NCBI GenBank assembly: GCA_921293015.1 | Contig: OV121081.1 | Span: forward strand, 64,621,022 to 64,685,021 | Length of the DNA: 64,000 nucleotides | Direction: 5' to 3' | From: Phorcus lineatus | Lineage: Eukaryota; Mollusca; Gastropoda; Trochida; Trochidae | Shown: positions 36,430-64,000 of the stretch, piece after piece | Layout: each line of letters opens with the position of its first letter | Numbering within the stretch: the first letter of the stretch is position 1 | Program-made: the position numbers and the translations under genes | Notes under the pieces: model-generated | What the model saw: the letters and a program-made list of their open reading frames with translations, nothing else | Told to the model about the DNA's origin: nothing | Databases searched by the model: none

Positions 36430-36565
36430 ATTACCCGAGGAGGTGTGTCATATGACTTTTCGAAACGAGTGTTAACTTTTGTATGACCCGAGCGTGAGCG
36501 AGAGTTATACTCAAATTCGTACAAGTTTCGTAAAAGTCATTATGACACATTTCCGAGTGAAATGA
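36430..36565. repeat. Inverted-repeat element with a GAGCGTGAGCGAGAG centre
   Basis: TGTGTCATATGACTTTTCGA (from 36444) pairs with the inverse sequence ending at 36549 (GTTTCGTAAAAGTCATTATG, then ACACA). Arms are about 24 bp with two small differences. The centre contains GACCCGAGCGTGAGCGAGAG. Non-coding; family not identified. Confidence 0.55.
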
Positions 36566-37279
36566 TTTCTTTATTACCTATCATATACCCTTCAGAACGC
36601 ATGAAAATATTCAGAAAACGACATGCGGACGAAAAGACAAATTTGCTGTCTCGAAAAATTTATTGTAGTTTTTGCTCGAGGTCTTATGTAATGTATATTT
36701 CGAAAGTAAAGTAACGGTTTTAATGAATTGGTTTTCCCTTATCGTTGAGAAAATATCTTATATCTATTTCCAAATTAATATTTCCTTTAGGTTTCCTTAA
36801 GGTTTTTAATGATATAATCTGTACGTGACCCATCTCAATGTACTAGAGATTCTTCTTCGATTTTTGTGACCTAATTTAAAATCAATAAAGTTTCCTTTTA
36901 GAGATTCACAAGCGTCCATAAAAGGTTCTATGGAATCGTTAACACAACATTGCGAACATATATCTAATTTCGGGTGACCCTTTCTATAATTGTAAATGTT
37001 TTTGTAATTGTTTGTGCAAAGAATTTATTCATGGATTCGAACAATGTCTACCACTAACCGACAGCACTGAAAATCATGAGAAAATCATAAGAAAATCATA
37101 AGATTGATATGGTATATAGAGAGTATATTTGACATATCTTGTTTGACACTTTGATAAACTTTTCTCTTGCTGCCGATATTCATAATTAAGAACAAATTTA
37201 AGGACATGTATTGTGTTACGTGTAAATTTAGTATCGACAAATGTCTCCAGTTAAACAAGCAAGCAATTGGATATAGTTA

Positions 37280-37740
37280 TAACAATTTGATTGATAATTA
37301 ACAAAGACTCTAAAGCTACAAGATAGATTAACAAACAAAGGTAATACAATACCAAACGAGTCACACCAGGATATCTAAACATATGTTCTCCTGAATCAAA
37401 CAGCAGTTGGTGTGAGTCTCGTCTTGATGACTGATGAATCCCAAAAACGTGGAGAACAGTCACACAGGAGAATGATCGCAAAGTCAAATGTAGAAAAACC
37501 AGGAAGCTCGATATGTCTAGCTTTCCTCAGACAGCCCTTACAATAATGGAAATAATGCCTCCAGATTTTTCCAATTACAGAAAGATCTCAAGCAGTAAAG
37601 GAATACTTGGAAAGTTCTAGATGGACATTCTAGACTAAGCGAGATTACATAACCCAAACAAGCAATTGTACGACCCACTGAACAGTGCAGCAATGTTACT
37701 CAATGTTTTACTTGTAAACAATCACATTATCATCAAATAT
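37280..37740. repeat. Old segmental duplicate, copy B distal block
   Basis: Diverged counterpart of 29480-29935: GGTAATACAATACCAAACGA, GTGGAGAACAGT, GAATGATCGCA and CGACCCACTGAACAGTGCAG occur in the same order as their partners. No coding potential. Confidence 0.55.
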
Positions 37741-39685: not shown

Positions 39686-39765
39686 TGCACATTCTTCATC
39701 CCGTTTTGGAAATGAATGTAAACATTGCACATTCTTCATCCCGTTTGGGAAATGAATGTAAACAT
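39686..39765. repeat. Two-unit 40-bp tandem duplication
   Basis: TGCACATTCTTCATCCCGTT begins units at 39686 and 39726; the copies differ at one base. Non-coding. Confidence 0.85.
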
Positions 39766-40039
39766 TGCATGGAGTACTTATCATTTTAGTATAGTTTCAG
39801 ATTTGCACCGATTGTCATATAAGAAAAAGGTTTCCTAGGTGTATAAGCACGCATTGTCTACCTCAAATTGTACATACTAATCATTCTTTACAATTGATCT
39901 TCAACCAGTAATGCAATTTTAAGACGACCGAAATCTCTTATGGAAATGAAAATCGACGGTTGCTGTGCACAGATTGGGAAAATGGTGGTTTAAACAGCAA
40001 AACGGGGATCGTGTGCAGCACGTATTCCTTAACCTCTTA

Positions 40040-40320
40040 ACTGAGAACATAGAATGAAATATTCTTTATTAAAGTATTGTGGAATTTAACCGTTGATGTT
40101 GCAATAACCATAACGGCTGCCGTTTTTGGAATAGAAATTTTATGCCAAATTAGCATCATACTGATTCGTAGTTCATGCTGAAATAATGAAAGGTTGCATT
40201 CATGCCTTCTAGCCTTTAGAAAATAACCTGAATATGTATGCTATTTTCTAGATAACGTATAAGTTAGCTTACTAAGAGCGGGTTGTTAGTAAAAGGCACA
40301 GTTAGGCTTTGTCTGTGCAT
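40040..40320. repeat. Old segmental duplicate, copy C
   Basis: Contains the shared CCATAACGGCTGCCGTTTT segment and, about 170 bp later, GAGCGGGTTGTTAGTAAAAG followed by TCTGTGCATT. This is the same order as at 34800-35000. More diverged than copies A and B. Confidence 0.45.
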
Positions 40321-43300: not shown

Positions 43301-44387
43301 AACCACACAAAATAAACATTCAATGACGAACGAAATCATTTTTATTAATGTCATGTACATTGCACAATGATTAATAGCGCTTATTGAGAATGATAAATCA
43401 AGAAATATCGATCAACAGTTTATTTCAGCGAATAACTATGACAATATTGTGCAAATCTCACATCATGAGGCAATTAAATATTTCTCCATACCATAAACGA
43501 GCCAACTAAAAGCCCTTCGTCTTCGTCCACGTCTTGTGGAAGCGAATATTCCTCAGGGCGCAAATTTCTATTTGGCATTGAACTCCTACGATCGTAGGGA
43601 AAGTAACGCACAAAACAGCAGACACGCTAAATTAGATGTTTTGAGATAATTACACTTTAATTTAGATTTATTCATAAATTTGGCAAATGATTTTCTATTT
43701 CCATTATATGATTTTAATATATATTATTATGATTATACTATATGTTATATTGTCATAATACAGTCAGAACGGCGAAAGTAAACCAGAACTGCGAAAAGTT
43801 GCATGGTCGAAAATGACAAAATGGCGAATATATTGATCATTGACATATTTGAAAAGAATACCACACAAACAACCATTGACCATCAAGGTTCAAACGTATC
43901 AATGTTGTCAACATCTCGGCTTCAAGTTACCTACATATTGTCAATCTTTGAACTTCGTGTTCATTCATTCCATTTAGCCAAGAATAATAATGATTATGAT
44001 ATAATTATATATTGTAGATTTATTTGTTAACACTCTTTTGCGCCAATTACGTTGTCCAAAAAACGTTAAAATTTTTTAAAAATATAAAAATGACATATCA
44101 CGTTCAAACGATTAAGTCATTTAAAAATGATAATAATAATAATAATAATTTGATAACACGACAGAGCGAGTTGATATCGTCGTACAGAAAACGACATTCC
44201 TAGGCTATAATGACTCAATTCGGGATATTCATAGTAAATAGTAAATAATTGTCGAGATAGTTTTCAACAAACGTTCGTGAAGGATGATTGGCGGAAGTGT
44301 TACACAATTCCTAATCTACGTAACGTCTTTATATCAAGAAAGGAGGGCGTAAAAATCACGGGAATGGCTGAACCAAGCCAGAGAGAT
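40321..44387. other. Intergenic spacer
   Basis: AT-rich DNA with no supported gene. A segment near 41091-41125 (GTGTTTGATCCTCTGCAGAT) resembles the interior of the TTAAAGGGGCA MITE family but lacks recognisable ends. A TAA microsatellite lies at 44131-44149. Confidence 0.4.
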
Positions 44388-44398
44388 CGAGGTACAAG

Positions 44399-44713
44399 GT
44401 GAGTGAGGTGAGTTGGTGTTTAACGCCGCTTTCAAGATTATTTCACTCATATCGCGGCTGCTAGTATTATTGCAGGGAGAAAGCCCGCAACACTATTGTG
44501 GGTATGCATTGCGGTGAAACCTGCGAGCATCGGCTGGAACTAGCGAACCATGGGTGGTACTGCGCTGAATTTCAGTGTAGCATTGCACCCAAACCTGACT
44601 GCGTGTAGAACAGTTCTCTACTGCAGACAAGGTTGCCGAGCCCCTGGCGGGATTCGAACCACGGACCTCCTGATCCGAAGCCGAACGCGCTAACCACTGC
44701 GCTATCCCGCCCC
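44399..44713 (-). mobile_element. tRNA-headed SINE with perfect target-site duplication
   Basis: Read on the minus strand from 44713, it begins with a tRNA-like head: GGGATAGCGCAGTGGTTAGC matches the RNA polymerase III A box region and GTGGTTCGAATCCCGCC the B box. A tRNA-unrelated body follows, ending in a CTCACCTCACTCAC tail. TCGAGGTACAA at 44388-44398 is repeated exactly at 44714-44724, the expected target-site duplication. The T stem is eroded, so this is not a functional tRNA. The two overlapping minus-strand ORFs here are by-products. Confidence 0.9.
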
Positions 44714-45491
44714 TCGAGGTACAAACTGCGGCATGGTGAAACTCTGACTGCTGCTGTGTTTGTGATACACGCCGAATAGACAAGACAAGACAAGTATAGA
44801 TTCTGAGAAGTCAAGTACATTTTCTGGCGTTTAACCAAAAAAAGATTGCATGTATTAGCTTGCCTTTGTTCGTTAACTACCATAAGTATTTTACATCTTT
44901 ATTTACCTACTTGTATTAATCGAAAAAAAATTCCTAATGTTTCGATCCCATAGATATAGAAATATATATAGAAATTTCATTTTATTGATTCACTTAAAAG
45001 ATGTTAACTGGGTGTAGCGAGCCATGTAAACATCTCTCTTTCAAAAAGCATTTGAATGTAGTTCGCCATTGACCTTAGTATACTTCTATATGAGAATAGC
45101 GAAGCTCTTACCATGCACAAAATGTAGAAGTTGCTAAAGCACATTGTCCGTTACTTCAATCAAGCATATAATAACATAAAATCTCAATTATCTCAGTTAC
45201 TCGTGGGAGAGTCTTGTAGAACAGTCAACTAGAGAGTATACGACAGAGGAAGAATGGCGTATAGTAGTGCATCATGAATACTCAGAGAATGTTCTCAATA
45301 GAAACACAAAATAAACTGAATCCTCAATTCGTAGAAGGGTCTCTTAGAGTGGTACTATAAAGGAATAGCATTCTTCACATTTAGAATAAGGAAGTTCCTT
45401 TAGACAGAAAATGAAAAATATTTTAGAGATAAGTTATAATTTTTAGGTGCTGTCGATGGAAGGGAATGGCAGGGCAAAGACTAAAATCAAA

Positions 45492-45497
45492 TTTATT
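45492..45497 (-). terminator. Candidate polyadenylation signal of the channel gene
   Basis: TTTATT on the plus strand is AATAAA on the minus strand, about 148 nt past the stop codon of the DEG/ENaC gene. Plausible position, no transcript support. Confidence 0.4.
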
Positions 45498-45644
45498 TTA
45501 TCAAACATTTGAGCATTCAAAACATTAATGAAAAGAAAAGTCGTATTTATCATTCATTATAAATCAGGGTAACAATGAATTAAATAAAAGCACAAACCAC
45601 TGACTAAGTTTCGTATATAATAAATAAGTTTCATGTTCTGACAT

Positions 45645-46006
45645 CTAAAATCCCTCTACATCTTTACATGTAGAATATGTTCTTCGACTTGGTCTTGTCA
45701 CCTTTGTCCACTTTAGGTACTCCGGCGCGAAATCTGACCATGTCAGCACATTGCTACCGGATCGTCTCCTCTTGAAGTTTTCATTCGTTCCTGGGTTCGA
45801 ACCCATCCAGAAACCATCAGCGTTCTGCATCTTGGTGAGGTTGAGGGGAGGGATGGCAGGTCGGTCGGGCCACCGTGTCCGACGTGGCGAGGGAAGCGTG
45901 TTGAACCTTTCCCTCTCCCGGAGATCGTCGATATATCGTGGTGTGGGCCCGTCCATGTCGTCCTTCGAACCATAGAAGACCTTGTTCTCCAGTCCAGAAG
46001 TGTTGC
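45645..46006 (-). CDS. DEG/ENaC gene, exon 12 (tail end and stop)
   Basis: 362 nt including the stop, residues 639-757. Basic and Arg/Trp-rich, with RRTRWPDRP, GFWMGSNPG, NVLTWSDF and YLKWTKVTRPSRRTYS. Acceptor TACCCAACAG at 46007-46016. The frame stays open for 119 codons, GC-rich, which argues for coding. Confidence 0.8.
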
Positions 46007-49000
46007 CTGTTGGGTACATTCACATTACATAATATCGAAGACTATTTCCTCAATGGTTTACGAGTCTACAGCAACTTTAACTGTAAATCTAGTAAATACT
46101 GGTAGGACACTATCTATTTTTTGAGACAGTGCGCTACTCAAATCAAAAACTTAAAGGGAGGCTCAGAGAACTGGCACCTGCAGGATCCTGTCTTGCTTGC
46201 TTGATTTTGATTTTAGGGGGAGTATCCCGTTTTGGCTGTTGAAATATAGGGAAATAAGGAAACGGGGCGTTGTCAGAACTATTACCTGTTGTGAATCCTG
46301 GTTTGGTCCATCTCTTCCGACCCGAGGCTGGTCCTTCTAAAGACCTCCACTGCGGTAGGCCACGGCATGCAGACCAGATGTTCTGATTCTGCCCCGTAAC
46401 CTTGACCTCGGGAACTTCCGGTTGATCCCTAGGGGTCAGCCTAGACGATATTGCTTCGTATGTGTGGTCGTCGGTCCTGGGAGTTTCCATCTCCTTGATG
46501 GGGTCAAGTGAATGACCTGCAGGGGTCAAGGTCGAGAGGAAGGTGGTGGAGGACTGGAGTTTCTTCCCCGTCTCCTGGCTCGTGTTCTTCCCAGACCAAG
46601 TGAAGGTGTTGACATCTCCATCCTGCAATCTCTCCATTCCCGCCTTCTCTTCCTGCTTCCTGAAAACATATTGGGGATTGAAAACACTTAAGATGATGGA
46701 AATATAAGTAAATGGTCAATGAATAAAAAAAAAGCCTGGAAATTAAAAAGTTACTTAAAAAGTACATATCCTGCATGTCTGTACGGTCATTGTCAACGTT
46801 TTTTATCAGAAGTAATCTTGGTATTCACGTTTGGATTAGTAGATCGAAATGAACATTCCTGAGGGTTAAATTTTCCATAAAACTGATGAAAATTTTATAC
46901 ATATCTTTAATCCAAGCTTGGAACACTTCTTACTTTGTTTATATCGAAGATGGTAATTATACAGTCACAAATTACACAACTAGTTAAACTAAAGTTATTC
47001 TTTGTTGAATTTTTTCGGTACGAATATCAAAATGATTACCCATTATATAGTTTGCTATATATGCCCATGAAGACATGAAAGAGGCCGACAAGGATCTGTA
47101 GGCAGGTGAGGAGGGACATCCCGCACACGAGAGCAGACAGAGCGCCCACCTCCATCAACAGGGCGAGCACCTGCAAATGCCAGAAACATGCAGTCATCAG
47201 TTTCGTAGGCGTCAGTTCACCCAATCCCATTGAAATCAGTCTAGCCATTCTCTCACATTTTGTCTTTTCTTCACAACTTTAGAGGTGCTGTTTTAAGATC
47301 AAAAGTTTATAGCGAACGGTAGCCCATCATAGTAGTGTTTCTTGTCCCGGCGGAAGAGACAGATAGCTCGCTACATCACCGCGAATGAACTTCCAAAAAG
47401 TCTGAACATTGTAAACAGCTTAACGCTGTGTAGTGGGTAATTTAACACTGTATGATCTAATTTGTTGTCTTATCCGAGTCGATGGTCAACGGGGGAACCG
47501 TTTTAAGCTGAATGTCTGAGATATTGAAAGAGCGATCTAGCGGGGTATATCTATGAAGTGAGTGAATTTGAGACTTTATTTCATTTAGATTTTGATTTCA
47601 CCTTTTTACGGGTTATTCTTAAAACATAATTCTAAAAGGGAGGAGTTCATATATTTTGACAGGAATTACAAGAATATTTACTTTTTGGAATCAAATGGAT
47701 GGCTGTTTTGTGAAAAATTGAAATTGTGATGCCCAGTTCGATTCTAGGATCAGGAATGTATTATTCATTAACACAATTCTTACTGTTACGATTGTTTGTT
47801 CAAGCAAAGTAATGATTAGAACGGGAGCAATCCTTTTTTACTAGTATATCACGTTTAAACAATGTAGGTCGAAGTAGGAGCATTTAAAATAACCTAATAA
47901 CTTAATTAACCGTTTGTATGGGTTGTTTGAGGGATTACGACCGGGATGCCAACGCTTTCATATTCACAACATGCCATCTTCTGTTGTAAGTAGAACCATC
48001 ATCTTTATAGACGCTTTATATCTCGTTAGGTTTTTAATAAAACATACCGTATCATAAAATGATCCAAGATAAAAAAAAAAGCAAGGAATTGAACGATAAA
48101 TGTATATAATTAAAATTCACATTAATCGATCCACTAATGAGGTAACAGGGTAAATCGATAAATCGATAAACGATTTACCTATCGATAAACATGGATTATG
48201 AATCGATATGCTACGCCTCTCAATCAAAATACGCCAAAAGTTAAGTAAAGATTTCAGCTCGATTTAAGATTTCACTTCAGCAAGGAAATTGATTTATTTC
48301 GTCTCAACGACCCCATCCATTTTCTTTACAGATCACTGTATTAGCATCATCCACGTGAATGCGCGCATTCACACACGGTGACATTCTGTGACACGTGGAC
48401 CAGGTCAGAGAGAATAGGCCACTAGCAATAATTACATTGAACCTAGACTTATAGTTGACTTCGTATCTGGATTGATTTGGAAATACATTAAACAGCATTT
48501 GGTCTCCTAAACATCAGGCCTTCATTCTTATCGACTGCGTCTCTGTCCGGGAAACGACCATTATTATGTATTATGTTTTTAAAAGGGAAGCCGTCGGGTT
48601 TTTAGAATTTTATTTGAGACAGGTATTTTTGTAACCGGGACTATTAACGCTTGATATGTGTACCATTCGTTAATTTGTGGTTGTTGACCTATTTAATTTG
48701 ATTTAGATATCATCATCGTAAAGGAAGAAGATATACACAAATTCAAACATATCCAGAAAAAAATTGCGATTTTGAACAATTCCAGCCTGAAAGAGTTGCG
48801 TTAAACAGAGGACAAGTATCTCTACTGCATCATAGAACATGTATCAGTTGCTAGTTTGAGAAAATATTATTCTGCTATGTGACATGCTATCAGAGACAGA
48901 GAGTGTGATTGAAATGATAAATTAACTGTATGAATGGCATTAAATTTTCGGTATGCAAATATTCAAACGGCAAAACACAGGTGCTTTGAATGATATTTTG

Positions 49001-52000
49001 AAGCTTGTATTCAACCGTAAGAGATTGAACTGCCATATCATGTAGTCGAAATTCAATTGATATATATTGATATAAGAAACATTACTTTCGGTTTACATGA
49101 CGAACAATGTGAAAATCATGTTAGTATGTGGGATAAATTAACTGATAGAACGTTAAAGGACACATGAAGACAAGACAAGACAAGTTATACTTTCTTCTCA
49201 ATCAGCATGCCTCAAAGAGGGATTAGCATAAATAGCATAATTTTTATCAATTGTAAGATTGTAAGACAATGATTGTTGATCAAAAGGAGAAGTTTTAAAA
49301 CGAATTTAGACGATCGGTTAAGCTATGCAAATCCATTTCCCTACCTCAAATGATTAAAAGGTCTTCACACAAAAATAGAAAATAGAAAGGATTTAGCGTG
49401 ATACTTGTATATTTCCTCCACGACTACAGAGGGTCATGAGTAATGAGATGTTTTGACCCTCTAAAGATAACGGATTTTGCATAAACTAATGGTTATTGAA
49501 TAAAATTCGAAGAAATAAATCTTTCAAAAAGACGTGTTTCTGCCCCTTTAACTGTGATTGATACCAGATATGATCACTATCGGTGTTTATTTTGTAAATA
49601 ACTATGTCTGGTTTTCCTGTATTCATTCAATGGATCTCCTCTTACCGTCATATCCTCCTCTTCCTTGAACCACTCGTAAGCTACATCGTTTGCAGTGATT
49701 TCAATATGAACAAGCTTTTTTCTGAAACAAAAGTATATCTTGTTAGACTTTCGTATCAAAGAGGGAAAATTTACACTTGGCGGCTGTTTTTAAAAATTAA
49801 TAATAATAACAACATTTCATACACGATTTCTTCTTGTTCTGAACACATGAGATTTGCCAAGTTATATATTGCGGTCCTCTGACAAATGTATTACCAAAAT
49901 GGAATTGAACCAACGGCCCTACAGTCAGCTCGGCTGCTCGACGTCTTATTCAGTAAATGAGGGGACATTTTCTGAAATGGTTTGATTTGAAACACATACT
50001 TTGATATTAATTAAATCCTTATCATTAATCATTATTAATTTTTATCAAGACTGTAATTGAAACAATACAGGGTTTGCAATACTTCTTTCTATATATATTG
50101 CGTGACAGTAGCAAAAACCAGGTTAGAGGAAGGGAGGGACATAAACACTGTTAAGCATTTCGTGTTTTCGGTTTCCAACGATGGAAAGGGGTGGAAAGAT
50201 TTCAAGAATTAAGACCTCAAAGAAACGAAAAAACTTGAAATCGGTTGAAATAATGCTGACTCGCGTCACTGTAACTTTTTAAAATGGTGATGTTTTAATC
50301 ACAAGGTAAATATTGAATCTAGTTCCCTTGATTCATATGATTATTTCATGTAATTGTTTGGATTTGACTTTTGGTTTGACAAATAAATTGGTTTTCTAAA
50401 TGATAATCGTAGTCCGTTTGTTCCGTAACCGTTGAACAAGCCATGGTTCCATAGTTTTGATGGTCTAATAAGGAGGAGATGGTAGTGCGATATAAAAGGT
50501 ATTTAACGGTCGATTTAGGAAATTGCAAACCGCGCCCTTGTCTCTTAAAATGTCCTTGATTTGAGCCCGAAAGTGATATCGTCATCCAATTTCACGGTTT
50601 TTGGCTCGACAAAGAGTACTGAATAAATCACCTGACATGCGCTATAATATTAATAACTTTGGGTATTTGCTGTAACTAATAAGTGAAACAGAGCGGCAAT
50701 GGCTTGATGTTTACAAATAGACGCGAGCCTCTAGCTTCAGTTAAACACGAAAACCACATCAAATATACAAAACTAATGTCCTCCTCGAAACACGCTGGAT
50801 TGATTTAGTGGAAGGTTATGGGTCTTGAAGCTCTTTGACAAATGAAGCCTGAAGTGTACAATGTCATGGATCTGCCTCCTACTCTAAGTCTTGTCCCGAA
50901 TCAAGTGTGGATCCATATCGGTACTTCCAATCTACTCGACTCTCTGGAGCATGGAACAAAACCATTACACAGAATGAGTTTCATTTTCAAAATTCAAATC
51001 ACGTTTAATACACAATACCATGAATGTCAAAACAATAATCAATCTGAAGTCATAAATGAGGACGTTGTTCAAAACCCTGTTTGATATAATCTATCGACTT
51101 GGAAGTGACGGATGTGGCCATCATAAGGTGTTTAATAAGGTTCAATACCTCGTCAGTCAAGTAGGGGTCACTGTAAAGCTTAACGTTATAATCTTATATG
51201 TACCGAAACATCACTTCACGTAACCAATGTCAACAGGTAGTTTACCATTTGGTACAAATCGTTTTGTCACGGTTAGGTTCGCCCGTACTATTATTTGTTA
51301 ACAACTAAATCAACTCATCAATTTTCGCACAAGCGTAGAGAATGGTAACTGGTGGAACTTTCGCAAATCTAATTGTTATGGAGCAACTTGCCCATGGACT
51401 GACGTAGTCTGACCATGGTTCTAATGTTAGCCTATGAAGCGATGGTCGGATTCATACTGACACGCACACGGACATTATATAAAACTGTAGATCTAAATGT
51501 ATGTAGACTAACAAACATCCATCCAGTACTTCATTATCATTGATACCCACATACTACAAAATGGCTCCTAAACCACGTAACCTACGAAGTCACCATGATT
51601 TACCTTTCTGGCCGTTATGCCCTTTCTTTTGAACTTATTTACAAGTCTCTATGTACATTATGAAAACTTACCCCATATATATAAACAAGAAATGACTGTT
51701 CGCGATCGATTTTTCGATATTCTTGTACGTTACATTATTGTATTACGTACAGTCGTGCAAGAAACAAGGAGAAACTCAGGAGAGGCCCGTTCACTAACTG
51801 ATCTAGTAACACAAACTAAGAGCGCTTGGCAAAGACTTAGGCTTGCCCTTGTTCTTATCTTTTCCTTGTCAAATATCAGACTATGTTTCAGTTTGCCCTT
51901 GTTCTTATCTTTTCCTTGTCTCAACCAGACTATGTTTCAGTTTGTCCATGTTCTTATTTTTTCTTTGTCTAATATCAGACTATGTTTCAGTTTGTCCTTG

Positions 52001-55000
52001 TTCTTATCTTTTCTTTGTCTCATATCAGACTGTGTTTCAATCTGCCCTTATGGAGACGGCAAGGCCCGTCTCTATTATCTAAATAGAGGAGTACTAGCTA
52101 CTCATCGTACCTTGGTCGTATTCTTCAGAGACTTTCATTGGTTAATATTTTCTTAACAAGACGTATTGGTTATTTTGAGTGAAGTATAGAAGAGGGACAG
52201 AAAGCCATATGTGACAGAAAATGTAGGAACTCTTCATACAAATATACGATTAATTCTACAATTTAAACACTCTAACTGATAATTTACCTAAAAGAAATAG
52301 ATGTCTTTTGGTGACTTCAGAATGTGTTGTGTAACGTAATTTGATACATGCAAACACATTCTCACCTGCAGGTTAAAAAATAATCAATTGCATTAGCTGT
52401 CCTATACAGAATCACCGAAAGCTCCTTAACTAAGTGGTTCAAGAGGAACAGGAAGTAAATGATTGTGAAGTATTTTAAAGAAATGCCTACATAATAAATT
52501 CATCAACTTGATGGTTCACAGTAGGGTAGTTAGGTTCATGACTAAAAAACATCGCTTATTTTTATGTGATCTTTTTAAGTGGATAGTGTCTAAATCAATA
52601 TTAACCAAGATCCCTCGCCGCCATTATCTGGCTTGTAAACTGACAAACCATAAATTGTCTAAACCAATCAGGGCCCGGCTTTAGAAGACAACAATATCGC
52701 CCTCACTGAGTTCCATTTAGAATAGCAATCACGTTGGATACTGTCAAGTATATCAACAACAAATTAAAATCATCAGGACCGTGTTCCAAAGGAACAATAT
52801 CATGTCTCAACTAAAATACTTTTAACAGTCGCAAATAAATTAATATTGTTAAGTAAATAGGATATCGAATTGATGATATAAAAGAAGATCTTGCCAACTT
52901 TTCTAATAGATTATTGTTATAATCTTGGGACACTGTGACCTTATCTTTACAAAAGGCATTAAATGTGCATAGATTTACCTTTTCTAAGTTACCTTCGATG
53001 TATAATCAACACATGAGGTATTTACTGCATCGATAACGGAAAACGCTTCAATAGAAACGGCAGGCTGCATGTAACAAGATATTTATAGGCGTCTGTAAGA
53101 ATATATTGCTTCATGATAATGGCAATAAAATATCATGAGGAAATGAACGTCCATATTGCGAGATATATGAAAACCCTAACACCTCTGGCAATTGAATATT
53201 GGCACGAATTATCGATGTTAAACCGTGGCGAGGTGTCAGGGCACGTACTACAATCTATAGTCGATTGATTTTCTAATTTATCCATTGTAATATAATTTAT
53301 AACTGAATAGCTCAAACCAATTCATAACTTCGTCTTTAATTCATTTATAAGGTCATCTGGTAATCGATTTTACTTTATTTAATGTCGTTAGCGTTTCATT
53401 GCCCAGACAGACGCATTGAAATGTCTCGTTAATTTCATACTAACCTTACAGACTAACATTTACAGAAAGTGTAATGGACGGAAATTAAATTAAAGGTACA
53501 ACTCGCACAATATCCCTTTGGCTATGATAGCTTTGATATCAATCATATAAACAACTTGAAAAGCCACGTTGCCTCTGTAACAAGTGGAGCACTTTCTTCG
53601 CCTAGAAATACAGAATCCCGATTGGTTCCGATTAAAGTTAGTTGTGCAATCTGCGAGTGTTGTTTTAAACTTATTACTGTCTCTGCTGTCGGGATGACAG
53701 GCATACCACATGTAGGCTACTGTCGCCTAATCAGTTTATACTTGATGAACTTTTAGGACGCAAGCGTATCTGTTGACAATACGTGTTGCTGGTTACTATT
53801 GTTACATAGGTTACGTAGAACTTACAAAGCAGCCTTGTATTAAAATTCACTTACAAAACCATCGTTTACTCCAAAAGCGATCTTATATGGCCTTAATGAA
53901 ATAAAATATCGGGACGAACTATTTGTGGTTAGAGGTTATTGATATATTTGTCTTGGAATTCTAATACTTTACATCATCCTTGTGACTTTGAAAGTTATGC
54001 TTTTAAACGAGCCTAAAACATGTAAGTGATTTATTGTCCAAATTGATGGGTCAACAGGCCTCGAAAACTAAAGGAACGAAACTCAAATTTAGTGGTCTGT
54101 AACTGGTCTATGCTATTCACCTGATATCCGAGCTGCTTCCATTGTAACCCTTCCGTCTGAGACTCGGCAGGAGATGGTCCTGAGTGGGAAGGAATAAGTG
54201 ATATAAATCGTTTTATACCTTATTCATCAAAACTGTCATATTCATAAAAATGTCTTCAAGATTAAACGATATGATTGCGAATAATTAAAATATTGAAACG
54301 AAATGAAGGTTCTTATTTAATATAAATTATATTGTTAAATGTTGGTATGTAGTCAGGTGAAGTTGGACGCGCTTCATTACCGGACGGGTTTCCCGCTGCA
54401 TTGTTTATAAGTTTCATTAGGACGGGTTATCTCCCTTCAAAGGTAATTATATTACTAACAATAAATAGACTTATAAAACGTTAAGATAAAGGCATTCAAT
54501 GCCAGCTCATAGCGCTATATAGAATTTCAAAATACACTACAGTAGACATACTTGATCGAGTATTCAAGTTACCTCTCTGTGTAACTTCGTTTAAAAGAGG
54601 GCTATAGCTTCAGCGTCTCGCAAAACCCTTGCGGTGAAATCATAAATATTGTTACATCTCAGACGTACTTATGTTGTAATAAATATGTGCTGTAGGTGAC
54701 TGTCCTCCGGGCTTCTATGTGGTTTTGGGAACAGACCGAATGGGACACTTAAATTTGATTTAAATCAATCACTATTCTGACATATTCAAGAAATGACCTA
54801 AGTAACCTCTGTGGGTAAAGAATGAGGTGGGGAATCATCACCGAGAACGATAGTATTTAGATATATTCATGTATTTTTCTCGTATTTCTCACCTTATGGA
54901 CTTCAGAGGGCCATGGTAGTGAGGACGCTGAAGTGATCACCTTGACGTCCCTATAGCAAAAATAATTGTCAGAAACATAAAGACATTTCCTTCAAGTTGT

Positions 55001-58000
55001 TTTTGGATAAAGCTCAGCACCACTTCCACAAGGAATCCACGTTTCTAAATAAAGGACAAATTCAAACAGAAAAAAACCCAGTTTCATACAAATTATAGGT
55101 TCTATGTCCAATATATAGGGTTTAATCATGTTATTCAAGACGACAATGAATTCTCTCTCATTATTCTAATGTTCGCTATCCTTTTACTCGTCTATGTAGG
55201 AATAAAAACATGGAAGTACGTGTACCTATTAACGTGTATCTTACCTGCAGTCAACGTCACAGTTGCACGGCAGCGACCTTGACCTCTTCATCTTTTCCAA
55301 GACACGTATACATACATCTGAGGGGAGAGATTAACACGCGTATAGACATATTTGAGGGGAAATTAACACTCGTATACACAAATTTGAGAGGAAATTAATA
55401 CTCGTGAGGTAATATGGTCATGTGAAATACAAATTTATTATGCTAGTTATTGTCCGTAAAATTATTGTATTGTATATTCTATGTCAAATATACCTAAGAA
55501 GGCAAACATCGATTTTATGTAGTCTCAATTGTTTTTGAAAAAGCATTTGAAATTGTAACTTGAAATAAACTCGTGTATGTTCTTCTATAGAAAATATGTT
55601 GAATCTGTTGAAAGATATGTATGATAAGGCATCTGCTTGTGTTGAAGCTGTAAACAAGTTGACAGCAATATTCAACAAATCGTTAGGGGTAAAGCAGGGT
55701 TGTATGCTCAGCCCAGAGCTGTTATATTTTTCATCAGTGAGGTTTTGCGGATTAAGAGAAATATCTGTCAAAGATAGTTTAAATTATATTTTATTGCTGA
55801 GTTCAAAAGACAACTAGATGCATTAGTTTGGTCTCGCTAACAATGTGAGTTTGAAGTCATTCTTGACAAAATTTGTATAGTTGTATTCAGAAATGGTGAG
55901 TATATAAAGAAATGAGAAAAGTGGTTCTGCAAAGGAACACATAGGAAGCTGCTATGAAGCATGGTAGTTTCAGTAGGATCACAAAGGAATGTATTAATAT
56001 CGATACGTTTAATACTGGATTTCAACAAAGATGTAAAGATAATGAAATTTAGAATTGGCATTCTAGGTTAACATCGTCATCTTTTCTTAAATACTATTGA
56101 AGAATCAAATCTGCCCTGGTAACTGAGAAATACATTTAGAACTTCATCACAATAAAGATCTTAAACGTATTTTGTGCAAATTCCAATGCCTAAGCCATAA
56201 GTTGGGCATTCAAGAATAAAGATATAAACAAAATTTGAAATATCTTAATGATCAACAAGATGAATTTTAATTTCTAATTGTATATTCCTTTTATTCTGTA
56301 CAAAGAAAATTTCATATATCCACTTACCATAATAGTTCTCCAACAGAATTAGTATTCTAACAACTTTTAACAACATTAAATCTTAATCTGTTGAAATCTG
56401 TTGCAGCATTTCTAAACAGTAGTCTGCCTGTTTTCAAAATTACATGTTAACCTTTCCAGCCGAGAACTATAACTTTCAACGTTTGGACCCTCGGCCATGA
56501 GGCCTTCAATACAAAAACGTCTTCTTCTTGAGTGGCAATTCATAGGTTATTAAAATGGGAATTTGATAGTCATAAACGACATGTTTGCGATTAATTATTG
56601 ACATCAACCAGTTTTCAAAAACAAATTAAAAAGATATTTTAAAATAGAATGCTATTTTGGTATAGCATGAATGGTGTAAGGTTCTTGCAATATGTAAATG
56701 GCTATTGTTCATATTGGTTAAAAACGGTTAATAACACATAGTCACTTTTTACTGATTCTTGATTCAGATACTGAAATATTGTCCAAGAGGCGCAAAAAAA
56801 TAACTCATTCACACTGATTCAAGAACAAGAATTTATTTGAACCAGAACTATAAAACGAAGGAATATACAGAATATCGAGTATCACTTACATGCAAACTGG
56901 GTGTGTATCTGACACCGATCTGCTACAGGTGCATCGATATCAACAGAGCAGCCACACACATCCCTCGATAGGCGCTCGAAACAGTCTCTTTCACACTTCT
57001 GAATAATAAAACATATGTTAGAAACGCTGGCTATACCGATCCATCTCAAAATGCTGTTAACACATTTCAAGAAAACCTAGAAACTGTAAGTTGTTTACAC
57101 TCACATATGACAATCTGACGTAGATTTCATAAGCATTGATATTAAGCATCATCAAGATTAATCATAAAATATACTATCCCTGCATCCTTGATCCTAAAAT
57201 CTGATATCAAACAGGACATCATGTCATCTTTGACCCGTGGTCATTTCACGGACTGCAAATACTTTGGCCAACAATTTGTGGGATGCAGCTGTGGTATCAC
57301 CAGACACCATAACGTCAGAGAAGAGTATCAAGCAATTGCTTAATTAATTTGATTGATAAGCATATAAAACAGAACTGTGTGTGACGCTGTGGCCGTTAGC
57401 ATTCTCACCTGTTGAGTGTAGCCAGGTGCAGCGTTGCATGTGAGGGCATCGTATATGGATACCTGAAGAAGCAAGAAGTAGATGATTAGTAAAAGTTACA
57501 AGCAACGAAGAGTCGACCAGGGGTTAATAATTCTGTTAAAAAACAACAACAGAATTTGATTGATTTAATACATCGTACAACTACCAATGGTGGGGGTCTT
57601 AAAGAATTGATAATGAAATATTACTGCCAGTAAATATGGGACCTATTAATTCAATGATTCTAAAACTCAAGTCACAGATAGACATTATATGCAAAGTAGA
57701 TTTCAAGGTGAAACTGATAGTGTTAATCATCTGTAAAGTCTTTAAAACTATGCCCAAAAATAACCTGAGATGAAATATAAAGCCACAGGGCAAAGGGTTA
57801 TTTTCCGGATACAATAAATTTCACCAAAAATTCAAATATAACGTGCACATGTTTCGTCAGGAAAAAAGCAAACTAATGATGCTCTATCATAAGAAGTTAT
57901 ATAAAATACTTGAATCAGGTTAGGAACTCTTCCTATTGAGAAATCATATTATGACAGAATTCTACACACTTTCATACAATTGTTGTCACATCGTATGTAT

Positions 58001-60911
58001 ACAATGTTGAAAATTACCTTAAAGAGCTATTTGGCATAACAAAATCAAGTTATGAACATGCTTGAAATAGAGAACATATACACACATCGTGTTTTTGTAC
58101 CAATTCCCCTGTACTTAAACTCCGTTCGGTTGCAACCGACCTTTCTACATAAACATCACCTATACATCAGTTACATAAATGTTTCATCACTCACTGCCAT
58201 TAGACAAATAACACAATACCCGTACCAACGGAATACTTAACGCCAATACTGAAACATGTGATTGAGTGAGGCGCGGGTTTCGAATGTGTCAATTTACAAA
58301 CGTGAGAATAGATGTTCTGAACATTTGGGTTTCCCTTACCAACTAGTTTCGGTGGAGAAGTTTTTAAATAATCCCTAAAGAGAATGCGCAAGGAAGACAG
58401 AAGGACCTCCAATAAACCATTCTAATAGGTTTGATGAGCTACATATTGAGTTAATCATCACATAGTAAAAAAATGGATATTAATCAATCCATCAAGATTA
58501 TTTCGTAAAAGGCCAAGTACTACGAATATAAACTATATGAAACCAGAAAGTGTTGAGAATAATTACAAACAGAAAAATGTGAACTTATTAGTTTATATCA
58601 CCTTTTGTAAGTTTATTTTTAGTGCATTTCCAGGGGAAACATGGTGGTCAGAAACGGCTTGTGGTTGGGTTGAACCCGAATGAACTTTGACCTTAAATGC
58701 TAGTGATGACGTCATTGATCCGAGATAATCCTCTGGGCGAGTATTGAGAATTAACGTAAGCCTTTCTGGAAGAGATGATTAATGGATAAGAAAAGCTTGA
58801 ATTCATGCACAATTGGAAATATTGGACATTGAATTATAAAAATTTAGTTTAGGTATTTTCCGATTTGATTGCCTTCGAACAAAAAATTTACAATAGATGT
58901 CAATGTTATATTCAAAATAGTAGCAATCCATGATAGAAAATATATGGAAAATGTGATCTAAAAGCCAATTTAAGTCTGATTATTTTCTCAACATGTAAGT
59001 AAACAACTTTACTAAATATTTACTATATGAATGAGAGTTTTGGTTTAATACGTGTCATCACAACTTAAAACTGAAATCAATCAATCAATGAGAAGCCTTT
59101 ACTTTCTGCTCCATATTGATAATACATGTACATATATTTTTCATATGGAATACCATTATTAACAAAAGTGCCTTACCAAAGCCTTTAGTCAGTTGAACAT
59201 CCAAACAATTACCATTGTCGACGTCAGATTGGTAAACGAGATTTCTGAGAAATTAAAAATATATTTTTTGAATTGTTCGTTCGGTGGTGAAATAAGGCAT
59301 TTGTTGAGAAAAGGTGTAAACTTTTACGAGATTTATCTGATTACCTCAACGATTATTTACGGTATTCGATCTTAGCGCCTTACTAGAATCTGTACATTCT
59401 CTGGATCAGCTGAGTAACAGACAGGTTTTATCGAAAGGAAAATAAGATTTTCTTGACAACAGCTTATTTATTGTGGAATTCGTGACGTTTAGGTGGGATA
59501 TAGGGATTATTGCATGTGGTACATATATAAACCATAAATTAGTCTTCCTTATGCATATCAATTTTAAATGCTCTTAAAAGATTTAAGAAGTACTTACGTA
59601 TTCTTTCATGCTTAACATTAAGCATAAAAATATTCTACTTTAGAAACTGAGTTTCTTTGTTTTAAAGGCTATCACGGTTTCCTTTTTAGCATAGTTTCAT
59701 ACATTCATTTTTAAAGGTTAAATCTTTAATTGATTCAACAAATATGTTACTTCTTTGAATTTAGAATTAACAAAAACCAAGATAATACTTTCTGAAAATC
59801 TACTGTAACTCTTGAGCTGAAAAGCGATAGAAGGGATCTTTATACATTTTTCGTTCATTAATTCTGCTCTTAGTATTTTGTTTTCTCTATATCAAAACTA
59901 ATGTTTATAATGATAAAATAGGTGATTATTATATTCATTTCATTGCATTTCCTCTTAACTCTAGTCGTATGATTAAATTTCAATATAGCTGCAAAGTGTT
60001 ACAGTCATGTATTACATTGGGAAACCCTCTTGAAGAGAAGAACGACCACTTTCATGAAACTCAAACTGTTAATTTGAATTGAATGTTTTGAAAAAAGATG
60101 ATTCCACGAATTTTAAAAAAAACTTTTAAGACGCTGTGATGAGCAACTTTGCTGTGACATTTTACCTAGAATCGCAAGTTTTGCCATCAGTCCAGCACTG
60201 AAGAAGGTCCTCGTATAGCTTTACGCCGTGACGACGAAGCTCCTGTCTGCTCGGTCGTAGAGCATGCTGCAAGTTGCTGACGTCAGCAGCTAGGGCGTTC
60301 CTAAAGAGCACTTCCCAGTCCGATGAGGTTTTCATTCCTTTAAATAGGTTGTACTCATGTCTTGAGTCCTCTACTATCATTTCCTCAGCACCCAAAATGC
60401 GGTGCAATTCCTTAATACGCGAATCTTCTGCCAGTTTAGGCTTTATTGGAGAAAATGTTTGTATGTTCTTAAGTGTCAATAATCCTTCGAAACGACTGCC
60501 TTTTAAAGTTGATTTTCGTAGAATGTTTGCATTGCACAGTGAAACAGTTAAAGGTAAATTATAAGTGAATCTGGAATGCTCTCTAGATACGAAGACGTAG
60601 TGGGAGCCAGTTGTCATATAATGTACAACTCTAGCAGAAATAAGATAGGACAAAGTACCCAGCCCTGCTGAACACACGCACACCCAGAAAATTAAACCTG
60701 TCAGCGAGCTTGTGCCGCCAATGAACGAAGTACAGTGAAGGTCCAAATACACCAGCCATCGTTTGATTTGGAAGGGTAGATATTCATGTTTTGATTTCTG
60801 CTTTACTTGAGACGCCTGACAGTCCTGCTTTGTTTCAGAGTTCTTTTCACATTCAGCAATAGAGGTGAAATACCTTTCACAGCGGTCTGGCCATTCTTCT
60901 TCTCTCATCAT
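45645..60911 (-). CDS. DEG/ENaC family cation channel subunit (twelve exons)
   Basis: Twelve exons with GT/AG borders join in frame to 2274 nt, 757 residues. The family forms trimeric, amiloride-type sodium channels in the plasma membrane. TM1 lies at about residues 70-97, the extracellular domain at 98-469 and TM2 at about 470-502. The post-TM1 motif reads LPLTVSLCN. The extracellular domain has exactly fourteen Cys (126, 239, 246, 262, 335, 346, 350, 359, 361, 373, 383, 398, 400, 404), matching the number and nearly the spacing I recall for ASIC1 (seven disulfides). The SASSLPWPS motif is at 412-420. Oddities: the pore motif is GMS (486-488) rather than GAS/GSS; Gln494 replaces the usual Glu after it; the N-terminal His-Gly motif reads Ile-Gly (64-65); the C-terminal tail is about 250 residues. 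Gating stimulus (peptide, proton, mechanical) cannot be told from sequence. Confidence 0.9.
46286..46659 (-). CDS. DEG/ENaC gene, exon 11 (cytoplasmic tail)
   Basis: 374 nt, phase 2 in and phase 1 out, residues 514-637. Hydrophilic and Ser/Thr/Pro-rich; contains TYEAISS (Y580, a YxxPhi-type sorting motif candidate) and Trp residues 534, 608, 617 and 630. GC-rich relative to flanks. Confidence 0.8.
47040..47170 (-). CDS. DEG/ENaC gene, exon 10 (TM2 and pore)
   Basis: 131 nt, phase 0 in and phase 2 out. Residues 470-512, including LLMEVGALSALVCGMSLLTC and LQILVGLFHVF. Aligns with the TM2 consensus (Leu-Leu-x-Asp/Glu-x-Gly, then Gly-Ala-Ser) but has Met in the middle of the selectivity triplet. 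Confidence 0.9.
47171..49645. other. Intron 9 of the channel gene
   Basis: Contains the MITE at 49153-49551 and a short self-complementary tract at about 48152-48190 (repeated ATCGATAAA, AAACGATTTACC). No other feature supported. Confidence 0.5.
49153..49551. mobile_element. Diverged TTAAAGG MITE in intron 9
   Basis: Begins TTAAAGGACACATGAAGACA and ends TGCCCCTTTAA. The interior block (GAGTAATGAGATGTTTTGAC, CTCTAAAGATAACG) matches the element at 5212-5553 (GAGTAATGAGGTGTTTGACA, GCTAAAGATAATG). The left end has lost most of its inverted-repeat match. Confidence 0.55.
49646..49721 (-). CDS. DEG/ENaC gene, exon 9
   Basis: 76 nt, phase 2 in and phase 0 out. Encodes KKLVHIEITANDVAYEWFKE and EEDMT, the final palm strand before TM2 (L-x-x-x-I-x, then Tyr and acidic residues). 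Acceptor TTTGTTTCAG. Confidence 0.8.
49722..54120. other. Intron 8 of the channel gene
   Basis: 4.4-kb intron. Apart from the 50-bp tandem repeat at 51843-52050, I see only AT-rich DNA with chance ORFs. Confidence 0.5.
51843..52050. repeat. Four tandem 50-bp units in intron 8
   Basis: Units start at 51843, 51893, 51942 and 51992. Each reads TTG-CC-TGTTCTTATCTTTT, then C/TTTGTC, then ATCAGACTATGTTTCAGT, with 1-2-nt length differences. The plus-strand ORF through it is a by-product. The plus strand is pyrimidine-rich. Confidence 0.85.
54121..54179 (-). CDS. DEG/ENaC gene, exon 8
   Basis: 59 nt, phase 0 in and phase 2 out, residues 425-443 (DHLLPSLRRKGYNGSSSDI). This is the loop between the WPS motif and the last palm strand and is poorly conserved. 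The exon is supported mainly by splice sites and phase. Confidence 0.7.
54893..54950 (-). CDS. DEG/ENaC gene, exon 7
   Basis: 58 nt, phase 2 in and phase 0 out. Encodes DVKVITSASSLPWPSEVHK, with the conserved Ser-x-Ala-x-x-x-Trp-Pro-Ser motif of the lower palm. Confidence 0.85.
55245..55317 (-). CDS. DEG/ENaC gene, exon 6
   Basis: 73 nt, phase 1 in and phase 2 out, ending LPCNCDVDC. The last three thumb cysteines (398, 400, 404) have the C-x-C-x3-C spacing typical of the family. Confidence 0.85.
55590..56090 (+). pseudogene. Decayed LINE reverse transcriptase fragment
   Basis: The plus-strand frame from 55596 reads MLNLLKDMYDKASACV, then FNKSLGVKQGCMLSPELL, the GVxQGCxLSPxLF motif of non-LTR reverse transcriptases. 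Further on, in other frames, IVVFRNGEYIKK and EKWFCKGTH match the palm/thumb region of the same polymerases. Frameshifts and stops separate the pieces, and the catalytic FxDD region is missing or unrecognisable. It lies antisense in intron 5 of the channel gene; more decayed sequence may extend to about 56.6 kb. Confidence 0.7.
56890..56998 (-). CDS. DEG/ENaC gene, exon 5
   Basis: 109 nt, phase 0 in and phase 1 out. Begins KCERDCFERLSRDVCGCSVD, the C-x3-C ... C-x-C thumb signature. The Cys spacing (4, 9, 2, 12) fits ASIC-type channels. Donor CAT|GTAAGT. Confidence 0.9.
57409..57462 (-). CDS. DEG/ENaC gene, exon 4
   Basis: 54 nt, phase 0 at both ends, residues 327-344 (VSIYDALTCNAAPGYTQQ). 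Supplies the first thumb cysteine, Cys335. Acceptor TTCTTCAG, donor CAG|GTGAGA. Confidence 0.8.
57463..58601. other. Intron 3 of the channel gene
   Basis: AT-rich, no element recognised; ORFs in it are chance. Confidence 0.5.
58602..58765 (-). CDS. DEG/ENaC gene, exon 3
   Basis: 164 nt, phase 1 in and phase 0 out, residues 273-326. Contains LTLILNTRPEDYLG and VKVHSGSTQPQA, then VSPGNALKI, matching the palm/knuckle region (Gly-Leu-x-Leu, V-x-IH, PG) of the family. Confidence 0.85.
59177..59244 (-). CDS. DEG/ENaC gene, exon 2
   Basis: 68 nt, phase 2 in and phase 1 out. Encodes NLVYQSDVDNGNCLDVQLTK and GF, supplying the GNC motif with Cys262. Acceptor TTTCTCAG, donor TTTG|GTAAGG. Confidence 0.85.
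59245..60165. other. Intron 1 of the channel gene
   Basis: AT-rich, no element recognised. Alternative splice-like sites near 59383-59406 and 59594 were tested and fail on frame. Confidence 0.5.
60166..60911 (-). CDS. DEG/ENaC gene, exon 1
   Basis: Encodes residues 1-248 plus two bases: cytoplasmic N terminus, TM1, first palm strand and finger up to LLQCWTDGKTC. An in-frame TAA lies 9 nt before the ATG, so the start is in this exon (ATG-ATG, first chosen). Donor AG|GTAAAA. Confidence 0.9.
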
Positions 60912-62919
60912 TCTAAATTAAGCATATATATGTACGACATTTATTTACATTTAACTTGCTTTTTCGCAGTAATTGTAATATAAACTTAAAATATGAAGAA
61001 AAAATTTCTTGTTTTCTCAAATAGTGAAGTCTGATGATGGTTGTCCATATTCTGTCTACCTTTTCATATCATTTTTTAAAAATGTTAACCGTTGGTAATA
61101 TAACTGGAACGAAACTCTTAACAGAAGATATAACAAAGCAACTAAAAAGGGATATTATTAGGATTCTTCAAATGTAATCTCAATCAAACATTTTTTATCA
61201 CCATGGTCCGCTTCTCTTTCAATATACATATTTGAAGTAACAACATAACAGTTTTCCGAAAAATATATCACAAAAGAAAATATTGTGAAGTAATCAAGAC
61301 TTTTTCCTTTAAAGTGTATTTTCTAATGGTCTCTTGAATATTCAATCTAAATAATTTCTAAATAATAACTGCTAACAGTTCCTAATCATGACAAAAGAAT
61401 CTATGAATTATTTACCTTTCCGCACTGAAACTCAAAACAAAATATTCCGTAAGAGGGAGTACCTGCTCTTTTGGCGTGTGGACTGGATATGGTTCTCACC
61501 TGCAGTGTTTTACTTACCATTACATACACTAATCACAGTACAGGTTTCCCTCCTGCAATCGGATTACCTTCAGATTTGGTCAACCCTTCAGCCAAATATA
61601 ATGCTACAACTATAAATCTCTTTCTCCTGACCTCGTAAGCAATAATCCCTTGAAGAGTCGATCACTCTACTAATGAACTACTGTTAAAAAGCTTCGTTTC
61701 AAATTCGTTCAGACATGAACAATGTTGATATTTCTTATCTTATTATGAAAAGTGTGGATTGTGCTGCTGCAAATATGACGATTAATTCTTGAACCCCGTT
61801 GTTAATACATATATGTAGGTTTGAGAAAAAGAAATGGACAAAAGGTTTACCGTAGATAATTCATCTATTCGTTCTACGAATATAATAATGCTAAAAAAAG
61901 TTTTCCACCATTCCACTGGTGGGGGTAAAGTGTTAACAACACGTAGGCGACAGTGATAATGTCATTGCGCTCATTAACAGGTGGGTTTCAGGCTCTCGAT
62001 TTAACTGATGAGTGATGTCGGTCGTTATTAATTTTAATTTGAAGATAACCATTCTGAAATCCGTGAACAGATTATCAACCAAATCGAATGCTTAATGAAG
62101 ATGGAAGCTCTTAGCAGAACCTCGTTCATTCATTTAGCTTTGGTCACTAAGCTACTACCATCATGGTTTCTTCGAGGCATTGGCATCGCGATCCGACTCG
62201 CAGGCAAAATAACCTAGCCAGCTCTGAGCAAGGTAACATGGTTCTCCATTTGCGCATCATACTTTTAGAACGAGAGAACAAAGTGCTCAAAGAGAACCAT
62301 GAAGTCTAATTAAGAAATACGCTGAACTTTACACGCGCGGAGTTATTGTCCAAACATTACCAGCAGTAAATAACTTATCTCAAATTTGAGATGCATAGAG
62401 ATTCTATTCACATATACCAAGACAAAATATGTCTTGAAATATTATAAGATCAAAACAATGACACCGCTGCTAAGGACAGTGAACTGAATAAACGGAAATC
62501 TGGACAATAATTGACGTCATTGCAATTGTTTTAAGCAACGACTGATAACACCGAGACGTTTTAAGTCATTACGTTTATGAGTGGGTTATGCGTGCAAATA
62601 TAAGCAGTGGATTGACCTATTGTGTTGTTAAAACAAATAATGACCCACGAGTAGGGCAGATTGCTTATATACTGACGACAGTAATGAATTGGTTGTTTTT
62701 AGATTCGAATAAAACAATGCACCTTGGCTGAAATAGAAGAGAGTTGAGTTGCTTATTTCGGCACATAATGTTAGCCCCTTGTTAATGATTGTAATTGTGT
62801 TTAAATGATATTCGTTTCTTTGGTCGGTTTGTCGTTCCCGGCCAAACGAAGTTTTCGGGGATACTAGAAAATAACCTCCGTCCGTCAGTGCGTTCGAGCT
62901 ATTCTTTTCCGAACAAGTC
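60912..62919. other. Upstream region of the channel gene
   Basis: A possible 3' splice site (AATTTAG) sits directly before the ATG, so an untranslated first exon may lie here. No coding region or clear promoter element was recognised. Confidence 0.35.
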
Positions 62920-63850
62920 AAGAGCCACAGGGCCTAGCTCATTGAAACTTCATATGGAACAATAAGCATATAAAGTGGTATCCATTGGGGTTTTAAAGCG
63001 CTTCCTACATATATTTTTGGCCGTAATCATGAAAACGCAACCTAAATCTTTTTATTACTTAAAGCCTGTAAGTCGTAGTTCATAGAAACTTAGTATATGA
63101 ACAATCATAAAATGTAGTGCTGCCTTTAGGGGTTTTCAAATTATTCCTGATATTAGTTTTGGGCGTTTCCATGAAAATGTAACAATTTGGATTCCGGAAA
63201 AGAATCCAGAAATTATAAGGATTATCTCATTGAAAGTTAGTTTATGGCATAACCACTGTATTTAGTGGTGCTTTTGGAGTTCAACTGTTTTCAGCCATTC
63301 CTTGTTAAAACAAACTTGAATTTGGTTTCTGAGCCATAATGCCTTAAGAATTGAAACTGCTACATAGAACAATTGCCTTTTCGGAGCTTTTAACTTATTC
63401 CTACTTTACTTTTGGCAGATTCCTTAAAAACATTGTTTAGAATATTGATGAACCAGAACCCAAAAACCATAAGGCCTAGCTCATTGGTATAAAATTGGCA
63501 TGTATAATCAGCATGCGTTGAGGTACCTTTGGGGGTTTTGACTTCTACCGAATTCTAGTTTTGGCTATTTCCAAGGAAACACAAACTACAATGCTGTTTC
63601 CAAGGTTGAACCGTAAAACCTTAACCTTAACGCTACGCACAATGAAACTTAAATCTTATCACCCATGATCTCCTTATGATAGTTCACAGTTTAGTTTTTA
63701 ATTTGAGTGTCCATAGAAAATACCAAAAATAAATGTAGGAAGAATTTTAAAACCCCAAAAGCCACTCCTTTACATCATGATTACTCCACATACAAAGTTT
63801 CACTTAGTTAGGCCTTATGGTTTTTTAGTTCTAGACCAGAACAGAATTCA
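62920..63850. repeat. Degenerate tandem array with an inverted terminal copy
   Basis: At least five diverged units of about 115-145 bp repeat the order GCC-TAAGGCCTAGCTCATTG, GAAACTT, GTGGTGCCTTTGGGGTTTT, TTATTCCTA, TAGTTTTGGCC, TTTCCATGAAAA. Examples start near 62927, 63063, 63218, 63335 and 63465. Near 63743-63840 the unit recurs in reverse orientation (AACCCCAAAAGCCACTCC, then GTTTCACTTAGTTAGGCCTT). Non-coding; the family was not identified. Confidence 0.6.
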
Positions 63851-64000
63851 CAGGGAGGCAAATGAGGATTGACAGACAGGGGTAATTTCTATATCACCAA
63901 AAACTTTGGCTGTGATAAAAAGCAGTCAGAGTCAGGTTGAGGTCATTTTTATATCAAAAAAAACTTTGAGTTTTGAGTAGGGTGGAAGGGGTTAATTAAG

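Follow-up and report, generated by a model that had tools for sequence, protein, structure and literature searches.

This locus raises two questions: whether twelve separate exons on one strand make up a genuine ion channel gene of the DEG/ENaC superfamily and, if so, how the channel it encodes would behave. The window, i.e. the whole stretch of DNA analysed (64,000 nucleotides), corresponds to C1:64621022-64685021 of a host genome of 958 Mb in 74 contigs.

Gene model

The focal gene was rebuilt from the DNA on the minus strand, where it runs from 60911 to 45645 (Table 1). As the sequence-only reading had proposed, its twelve exons join in one frame: all 11 introns are bounded by GT...AG, the start phases of exons 2-12 (2,1,0,0,1,2,0,2,0,2,1) are consistent throughout, and the joined frame of 2274 nt encodes 757 aa with no internal stop. 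An in-frame stop lies a short way upstream of the ATG at 60911. At the other end of the conserved part, exon 10 begins at a phase-0 acceptor located 8 codons ahead of the GG pair, an arrangement likewise seen in seven paralogue TM2 loci.

Table 1. Exons and other features of the focal gene, with positions in the window and the evidence used for each.
Feature	Positions	Strand	Evidence
Exon 1: N-terminus, TM1, beta-1, finger region (aa 1-249)	60166..60911	-	spliced profile; Pfam ASC
Exon 2 (aa 249-272; C262)	59177..59244	-	spliced profile; intron position and phase match L064
Exon 3 (aa 272-326)	58602..58765	-	spliced profile; L064 introns
Exon 4 (aa 327-344; C335)	57409..57462	-	spliced profile; L064 introns
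Exon 5 (aa 345-381; C346, C350, C359, C361, C373)	56890..56998	-	spliced profile; L064 introns
Exon 6 (aa 381-405; C383, C398, C400, C404)	55245..55317	-	spliced profile; L064 introns
Exon 7 (aa 405-424)	54893..54950	-	spliced profile; L064 introns
Exon 8 (aa 425-444), 20 residues	54121..54179	-	spliced profile; L064 introns
Exon 9 (aa 444-469), segment preceding TM2	49646..49721	-	spliced profile; L064 introns
Exon 10 (aa 470-513): TM2, filter G486-M487-S488	47040..47170	-	spliced profile; pore alignment
Exon 11: cytoplasmic tail (aa 513-638)	46286..46659	-	splice sites; open frame; GC
Exon 12: end of tail and TAG stop (aa 638-757)	45645..46006	-	splice site; open frame; GC
Candidate polyadenylation signal AATAAA, ~147 bases beyond the stop	45492..45497	-	motif match only

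Exons 11 and 12, which encode a cytoplasmic tail of ~245 aa, rest on their splice sites, a phase-consistent open frame, the AATAAA motif and GC content (0.551 and 0.522, against 0.289 and 0.398 in the adjoining introns). These two exons and the 5' end are without the spliced-profile and paralogue-intron support given to the ten conserved exons. Scanned alone against Pfam, exons 11-12, which fall outside the ASC domain, gave no match, and no homologue of the tail was found; tail matches to colicin E7 in the PDB (E 0.3-0.87) were taken as chance. Since the frame stops just past residue 513 if exon 11 is left unspliced, a short-tailed form of the protein is possible.

Several other features were recorded in the window. 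Intron 8 contains a tandem array of 4.2 copies of a 50-base unit (51843-52049). The plus strand carries a 439-codon open frame with an F-box (1479-2795; PF12937, 1.6e-07) and an open frame with a PAN domain barely above cut-off (18327-18770; PF00024, 1.3e-04). On the minus strand, an open frame at 12202-12630, which had no match in the Pfam scan, resembles by eye the terminal part of a LINE reverse-transcriptase ORF, and another at 44496-44810 resembles by eye a tRNA-derived repeat.

Spliced-profile search and controls

A spliced protein-to-DNA aligner was written and supplied with a profile built from same-genome paralogues and segments of ASIC2, ASIC5 and delta-ENaC, with the focal gene excluded. 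Run on positions 44500-62500, it recovered exons 1-10 with a score of 124.0 bits, and all of its internal splice boundaries coincided with the hand model; being local, the alignment started at 60845 in exon 1 and stopped at 47090 in exon 10. The 27 controls comprised seven real or reversed stretches (the opposite, plus strand of the same region, a pair of reversed sequences, and both strands of two further 18-kb pieces of the window) and 20 Markov resamples, with window positions 36003-44499 and 62501-64000 left out. They scored between 20.1 and 31.6 bits, which excludes a chance result.

In a genome-wide scan for PF00858, conducted exon by exon and yielding at least 83 matches, none of those 83 fell at the focal locus; exon 1 by itself reached 4.3e-05 and 23.2 bits, slightly below the curated cut-off of 23.6, and the joined protein alone matches strongly. 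A domain scan of this kind can thus overlook a strongly diverged multi-exon channel.

Domain architecture and cysteine framework

The Pfam search of the joined protein that had been suggested as a check was clearly positive: the 757-aa product matched ASC (PF00858) at 6.4e-37 and 128.1 bits (cut-off 23.6), near full length, with residues 58-496 aligned to positions 7-453 of the 455 in the profile. Hydropathy peaks near residues 69-92 and 467-508 mark two membrane helices flanking the Cys-rich domain. The more specific NCBIfam models for ENaC (TIGR00859, 77.8 bits) and the degenerin deg-1 (TIGR00867, 47.5 bits) remained below their cut-offs of 428 and 598.45, respectively.

The rebuilt protein has exactly fourteen extracellular cysteines (126, 239, 246, 262, 335, 346, 350, 359, 361, 373, 383, 398, 400 and 404), in agreement with those cysteine numbers that had been quoted previously. 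After alignment with MAFFT, all of them shared columns with the cysteines of all seven DEG/ENaC channels compared, FaNaC included. The 'ASIC disulfide pattern' ascribed to the protein is therefore correct as far as the alignment of the cysteines is concerned, but it is common to all seven channels and not diagnostic of ASICs.

With an ASC domain, two membrane helices, fourteen cysteines and a G-x-S filter, the protein is a member of the DEG/ENaC superfamily, and the locus almost certainly represents a real DEG/ENaC gene. This gene is apparently intact. The clean frame, together with the retention of all fourteen cysteines at ~19-26% identity, argues for a folded protein under selection. To that extent the sequence speaks for the description of the gene as 'functional', but the motifs in the pore and ahead of TM1 are non-canonical, as detailed below.

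Introns in common with paralogues

Expressed as profile columns (phase in brackets), the nine introns that separate exons 1-10 of the focal gene are located at 175(2), 210(1), 266(0), 293(0), 331(1), 355(2), 375(0), 395(2) and 421(0). Those of L064 (C5:6.79 Mb), a paralogue outside the profile, are found at 175(2), 211(1), 266(0), 293(0), 329(1), 355(2), 375(0), 395(2) and 421(0). All nine hence correspond to introns of L064, equal in phase and within 2 columns in position; L064 differs by two extra introns within the stretch that forms focal exon 1. The gene at C1:48 Mb (L066+L067+L036), whose N-terminal exon alone had entered the profile, has eight of the nine introns in common with the focal gene and a single exon where the latter has exons 4 and 5. 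Three introns within two columns were in common with the gene at C1:57.46 Mb, and one each with the multi-exon genes at C1:68, 70.49 and 75 Mb.

The introns in common with paralogues indicate that the exons of only 18 to 26 residues are old and real, and that the focal gene descends from the exon class of the C5:6.79 Mb and C1:48 Mb genes. Intron structure thus places it with these two paralogues, and it has diverged far beyond both.

Relatives and classification

A genome search with the full protein, in which 19 candidates were scored, returned 18 matches, twelve of which were the gene's own exons; the other six were 18-26% identical. The focal gene appears to be single-copy. A match at C16:18.80 Mb (35% over 98 residues, E 0.008) was rejected as a paralogue, since it contained three stops and was absent from the full-protein search. 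Among the nine longest of the 14 paralogue models, the top blastp match was L064 (23.4% over 337 aa, 1e-15), followed by the C1:48 Mb gene (21.7% over 314 aa, 3e-13).

The closest PDB sequences to the focal protein were delta-ENaC (9blr_A, 5e-10) and ASIC5 (9mky_C, 1.7e-09), with no FaNaC chain among the matches at E<=1; for L064, the top solved matches were FaNaC (7yvb, 1.2e-42) and gamma-ENaC (1.7e-40). The structure 7yvb is that of an FMRFamide-gated Na+ channel from the sea hare Aplysia. A single-exon FaNaC orthologue with 808 bits to 7yvb was identified in the host genome (L023, C11:25.33 Mb), on which basis the host animal is probably a gastropod mollusc. The blastp alignment of this orthologue with the focal gene reached 29.6 bits and covered only 58 residues.

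The focal branch was the longest in a 14-row tree (4.45, median 0.89), the top identity being 25%. It had no supported partner; its position adjoining gamma- and delta-ENaC received a support of 57/16, and in the unconstrained tree it fell outside the clade containing ASIC2. None of the three groupings submitted to AU tests was rejected; the p values were 0.427 for a grouping with the ASIC-type rows, 0.173 for one with the two paralogues that have its introns in common and 0.229 for one with the FaNaCs. Because of the long branch, the tree and the clade tests give no placement. Judged by its sequence, the protein is a divergent DEG/ENaC channel that is not assignable to ASIC, FaNaC or ENaC.

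The genome survey also yielded observations on other loci. Two 948-residue stop-to-stop open frames of the DEG/ENaC type (L024 and L025, at C5:4.70 and 4.73 Mb) have ~435 residues inserted shortly ahead of the last extracellular strand; the insert of L024 was mostly read as an intron by the aligner and may be either an intron that happens to stay open or a genuine insertion. Within a single 70-kb stretch, near-identical TM2 segments, belonging to L024, L025 and the related copies L043 and L044, are present at four sites. L063, on contig C74, matches COX1 and has 13 TGA codons in frame, in which the contig resembles mitochondrial DNA.

Residues of the pore and ahead of TM1

Pore positions are given in the primed numbering found in the available part of PMC8536179. 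The degenerin site, G433 of ASIC1a in the excerpt of PMC5383329, was assigned to -1' via the chain numbering of the 528-residue ASIC1 entry. For comparison within the genome, 23 pore segments were collected, of which one was spurious (the N-terminus of L024/L025) and one a duplicate of the L065 gene, leaving 21. The residue at -1' was counted in 15 of these, after exclusion of L045, L049, L051, L052, L055 and L061, where a splice acceptor may lie at that codon.

The TM2 of the focal protein has M475 at -1', A479 at 3', A482 at 6', GMS at 10'-12' and Q494 at 18'. In the comparison channels, by contrast, -1' is occupied by a small residue, 3' and 6' are Gly or Ser, 10'-12' read G/S-x-S and 18' is Glu; the small residue at -1' and the Glu at 18' are usual in the superfamily but do not define it. 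In all 21 pores of the same genome, both 3' and 6' are Gly, the filter is G-x-S and 18' is Glu, and the 15 distinct ones that could be read at -1' show Cys (8), Ser (5) or Ala (2), where the focal protein has Met. In the five solved channels, -1' is occupied by Ser (3), Gly (1) or Ala (1), and 18' by Glu without exception. Position 21' is Val in the focal protein and acidic in most, not all, of the others. The Met at the centre of the filter is not remarkable, as Ile, Leu and Phe are found there elsewhere in the same genome.

The HG motif preceding TM1 is absent: MAFFT pairs H59-C60 with it, and a shifted alignment (TSFIGG) gives I64-G65. In the excerpt of PMC7308080 the His of this motif is called conserved across the superfamily; the motif is nevertheless typical of the superfamily and not strictly defining, CeDEGT-1d being likewise without it (PMC8536179, excerpt). 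Among 20 paralogue TM1 exons of the host genome (loci L023-L041), the dipeptide is QG in 14, HG in 4, KG in one and TA in one (C1:48 Mb). The departure from HG is thus less unusual in the host animal than these papers suggest.

Interpretation of the pore

By analogy with mutated channels, the focal protein could be a cation channel with a gate biased open and with weak selectivity for Na+, a reading to which we give slightly less than an even chance. Judging from the family, the subunits would assemble as a trimer. Its gate would be partly open at rest owing to the native Met475 at the degenerin site, because the residue at -1' is small in all readable comparison channels and its enlargement opens several channels of this kind. 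According to the excerpt of PMC9822975, the degenerin residue is small in sea-anemone channels, and placing Thr there produced a constitutive current in five named channels; the sixth, NeNaC3, carried none with the same substitution. Cys or Val at this site of ASIC2 led to activation by other ligands or to constitutive current (PMC5383329, in the part available), and the baseline current of ASIC2a was raised by G430V (PMC13273826, excerpt). The replacement of the 18' Glu by Gln would probably entail poor separation of Na+ and K+; neutralisation of E18' or D21' in ENaC increased its K/Na permeability, as stated in the excerpt of PMC8536179. The same excerpt names 6' as the amiloride site, and Ala at this position would probably alter the block.

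Some published results point the other way. With bulky residues at the degenerin site of ASIC2, conductance and selectivity were reportedly unchanged (PMC13273826, excerpt). In ENaC, loss of or changes in the HG motif lowered open probability or current (PMC7308080, in the part available), an effect that pulls against an open bias of the focal channel. Moreover, what is known of the degenerin effect comes from canonical channels with one residue substituted, and the changes at 3', 6', 18' and in the HG motif may compensate for it here. The stronger proposal, that the wild-type sequence equals what is a degenerin gain-of-function state elsewhere (Met at -1', no Glu at 18', Ala at 3' and 6', no HG) and encodes a leak channel that is open in its native state, weakly selective and unusual in its lower pore, is accordingly put forward as tentative and rather doubtful.

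Other explanations start from the same residues. The protein might be an ordinary Na+ channel gated by a stimulus (peptide, proton or mechanical) and closed at rest, its pore residues having co-evolved to compensate for one another. The fourteen cysteines, the G-x-S filter and an acidic 0' residue would suit such a channel, as would the behaviour of one of the six sea-anemone channels, which remained closed at rest despite a larger degenerin residue (PMC9822975, excerpt); a genome with so many DEG/ENaC exons and a clear FaNaC orthologue, moreover, probably includes peptide gating. We nonetheless consider this reading unlikely, as both the degenerin site and 18' are unlike those of every readable comparison channel and changes at these positions alter gating or selectivity in the excerpted studies (PMC9822975, PMC5383329, PMC8536179). 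It is less likely still, and in our view improbable, that the subunit is non-conducting on its own and either modifies heteromeric channels or is silent: the HG motif and four conserved positions of the pore have changed together while the cysteine framework was kept, and HG changes reduce ENaC current (PMC7308080, excerpt), but the protein has G-x-S as well as its two membrane helices, and the sequence names no partner.

The branch length and the loss of residues that are conserved among the other pores compared could also be signs of a decaying gene or young pseudogene. This view is very hard to reconcile with twelve exons free of stops and frameshifts, canonical splice sites at every intron and a complete set of cysteines at such low identity, and we regard it as a slim prospect. 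That no gene exists, and that short open segments were chained by chance, is conceivable insofar as most of the exons are too short to be conspicuous as open reading frames; the distance between the focal score and those of all 27 controls, and the nine introns in common with a paralogue, reduce its probability to practically nil. The explanation that we prefer for the locus as a whole, and consider evenly poised between right and wrong, is an intact, apparently single-copy gene for a DEG/ENaC subunit that would form a trimeric, open-biased and weakly selective channel.

If this interpretation of the pore is true, the gene represents a natural experiment on gating and Na+ selectivity in DEG/ENaC channels, namely on how far the joint loss of near-universal residues (the small residue at the degenerin site, the Glu at 18' and the HG motif) is tolerated.

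Comparison with known channels

The focal protein belongs to a well-known kind of channel, of which it is a very divergent member with an unusual pore. Delta-ENaC and ASIC5 can be aligned with it over palm, thumb and TM2 and have the same G-x-S filter; the alignments with 9blr_A and 9mky_C begin at focal residues 234 and 340, respectively, delta-ENaC being 25% identical over 263 columns, and the residues at -1' and 18' differ. With FaNaC (7yvb) it has in common the superfamily fold and the fourteen cysteine columns, as aligned with the FaNaC of the host genome. Among the paralogues, the C1:48 Mb gene resembles it in being without the HG dipeptide, but is canonical at -1', 3', 6' and 18', whereas L064 combines the same ASC fold with a canonical pore, SDIGG...GAS...E.
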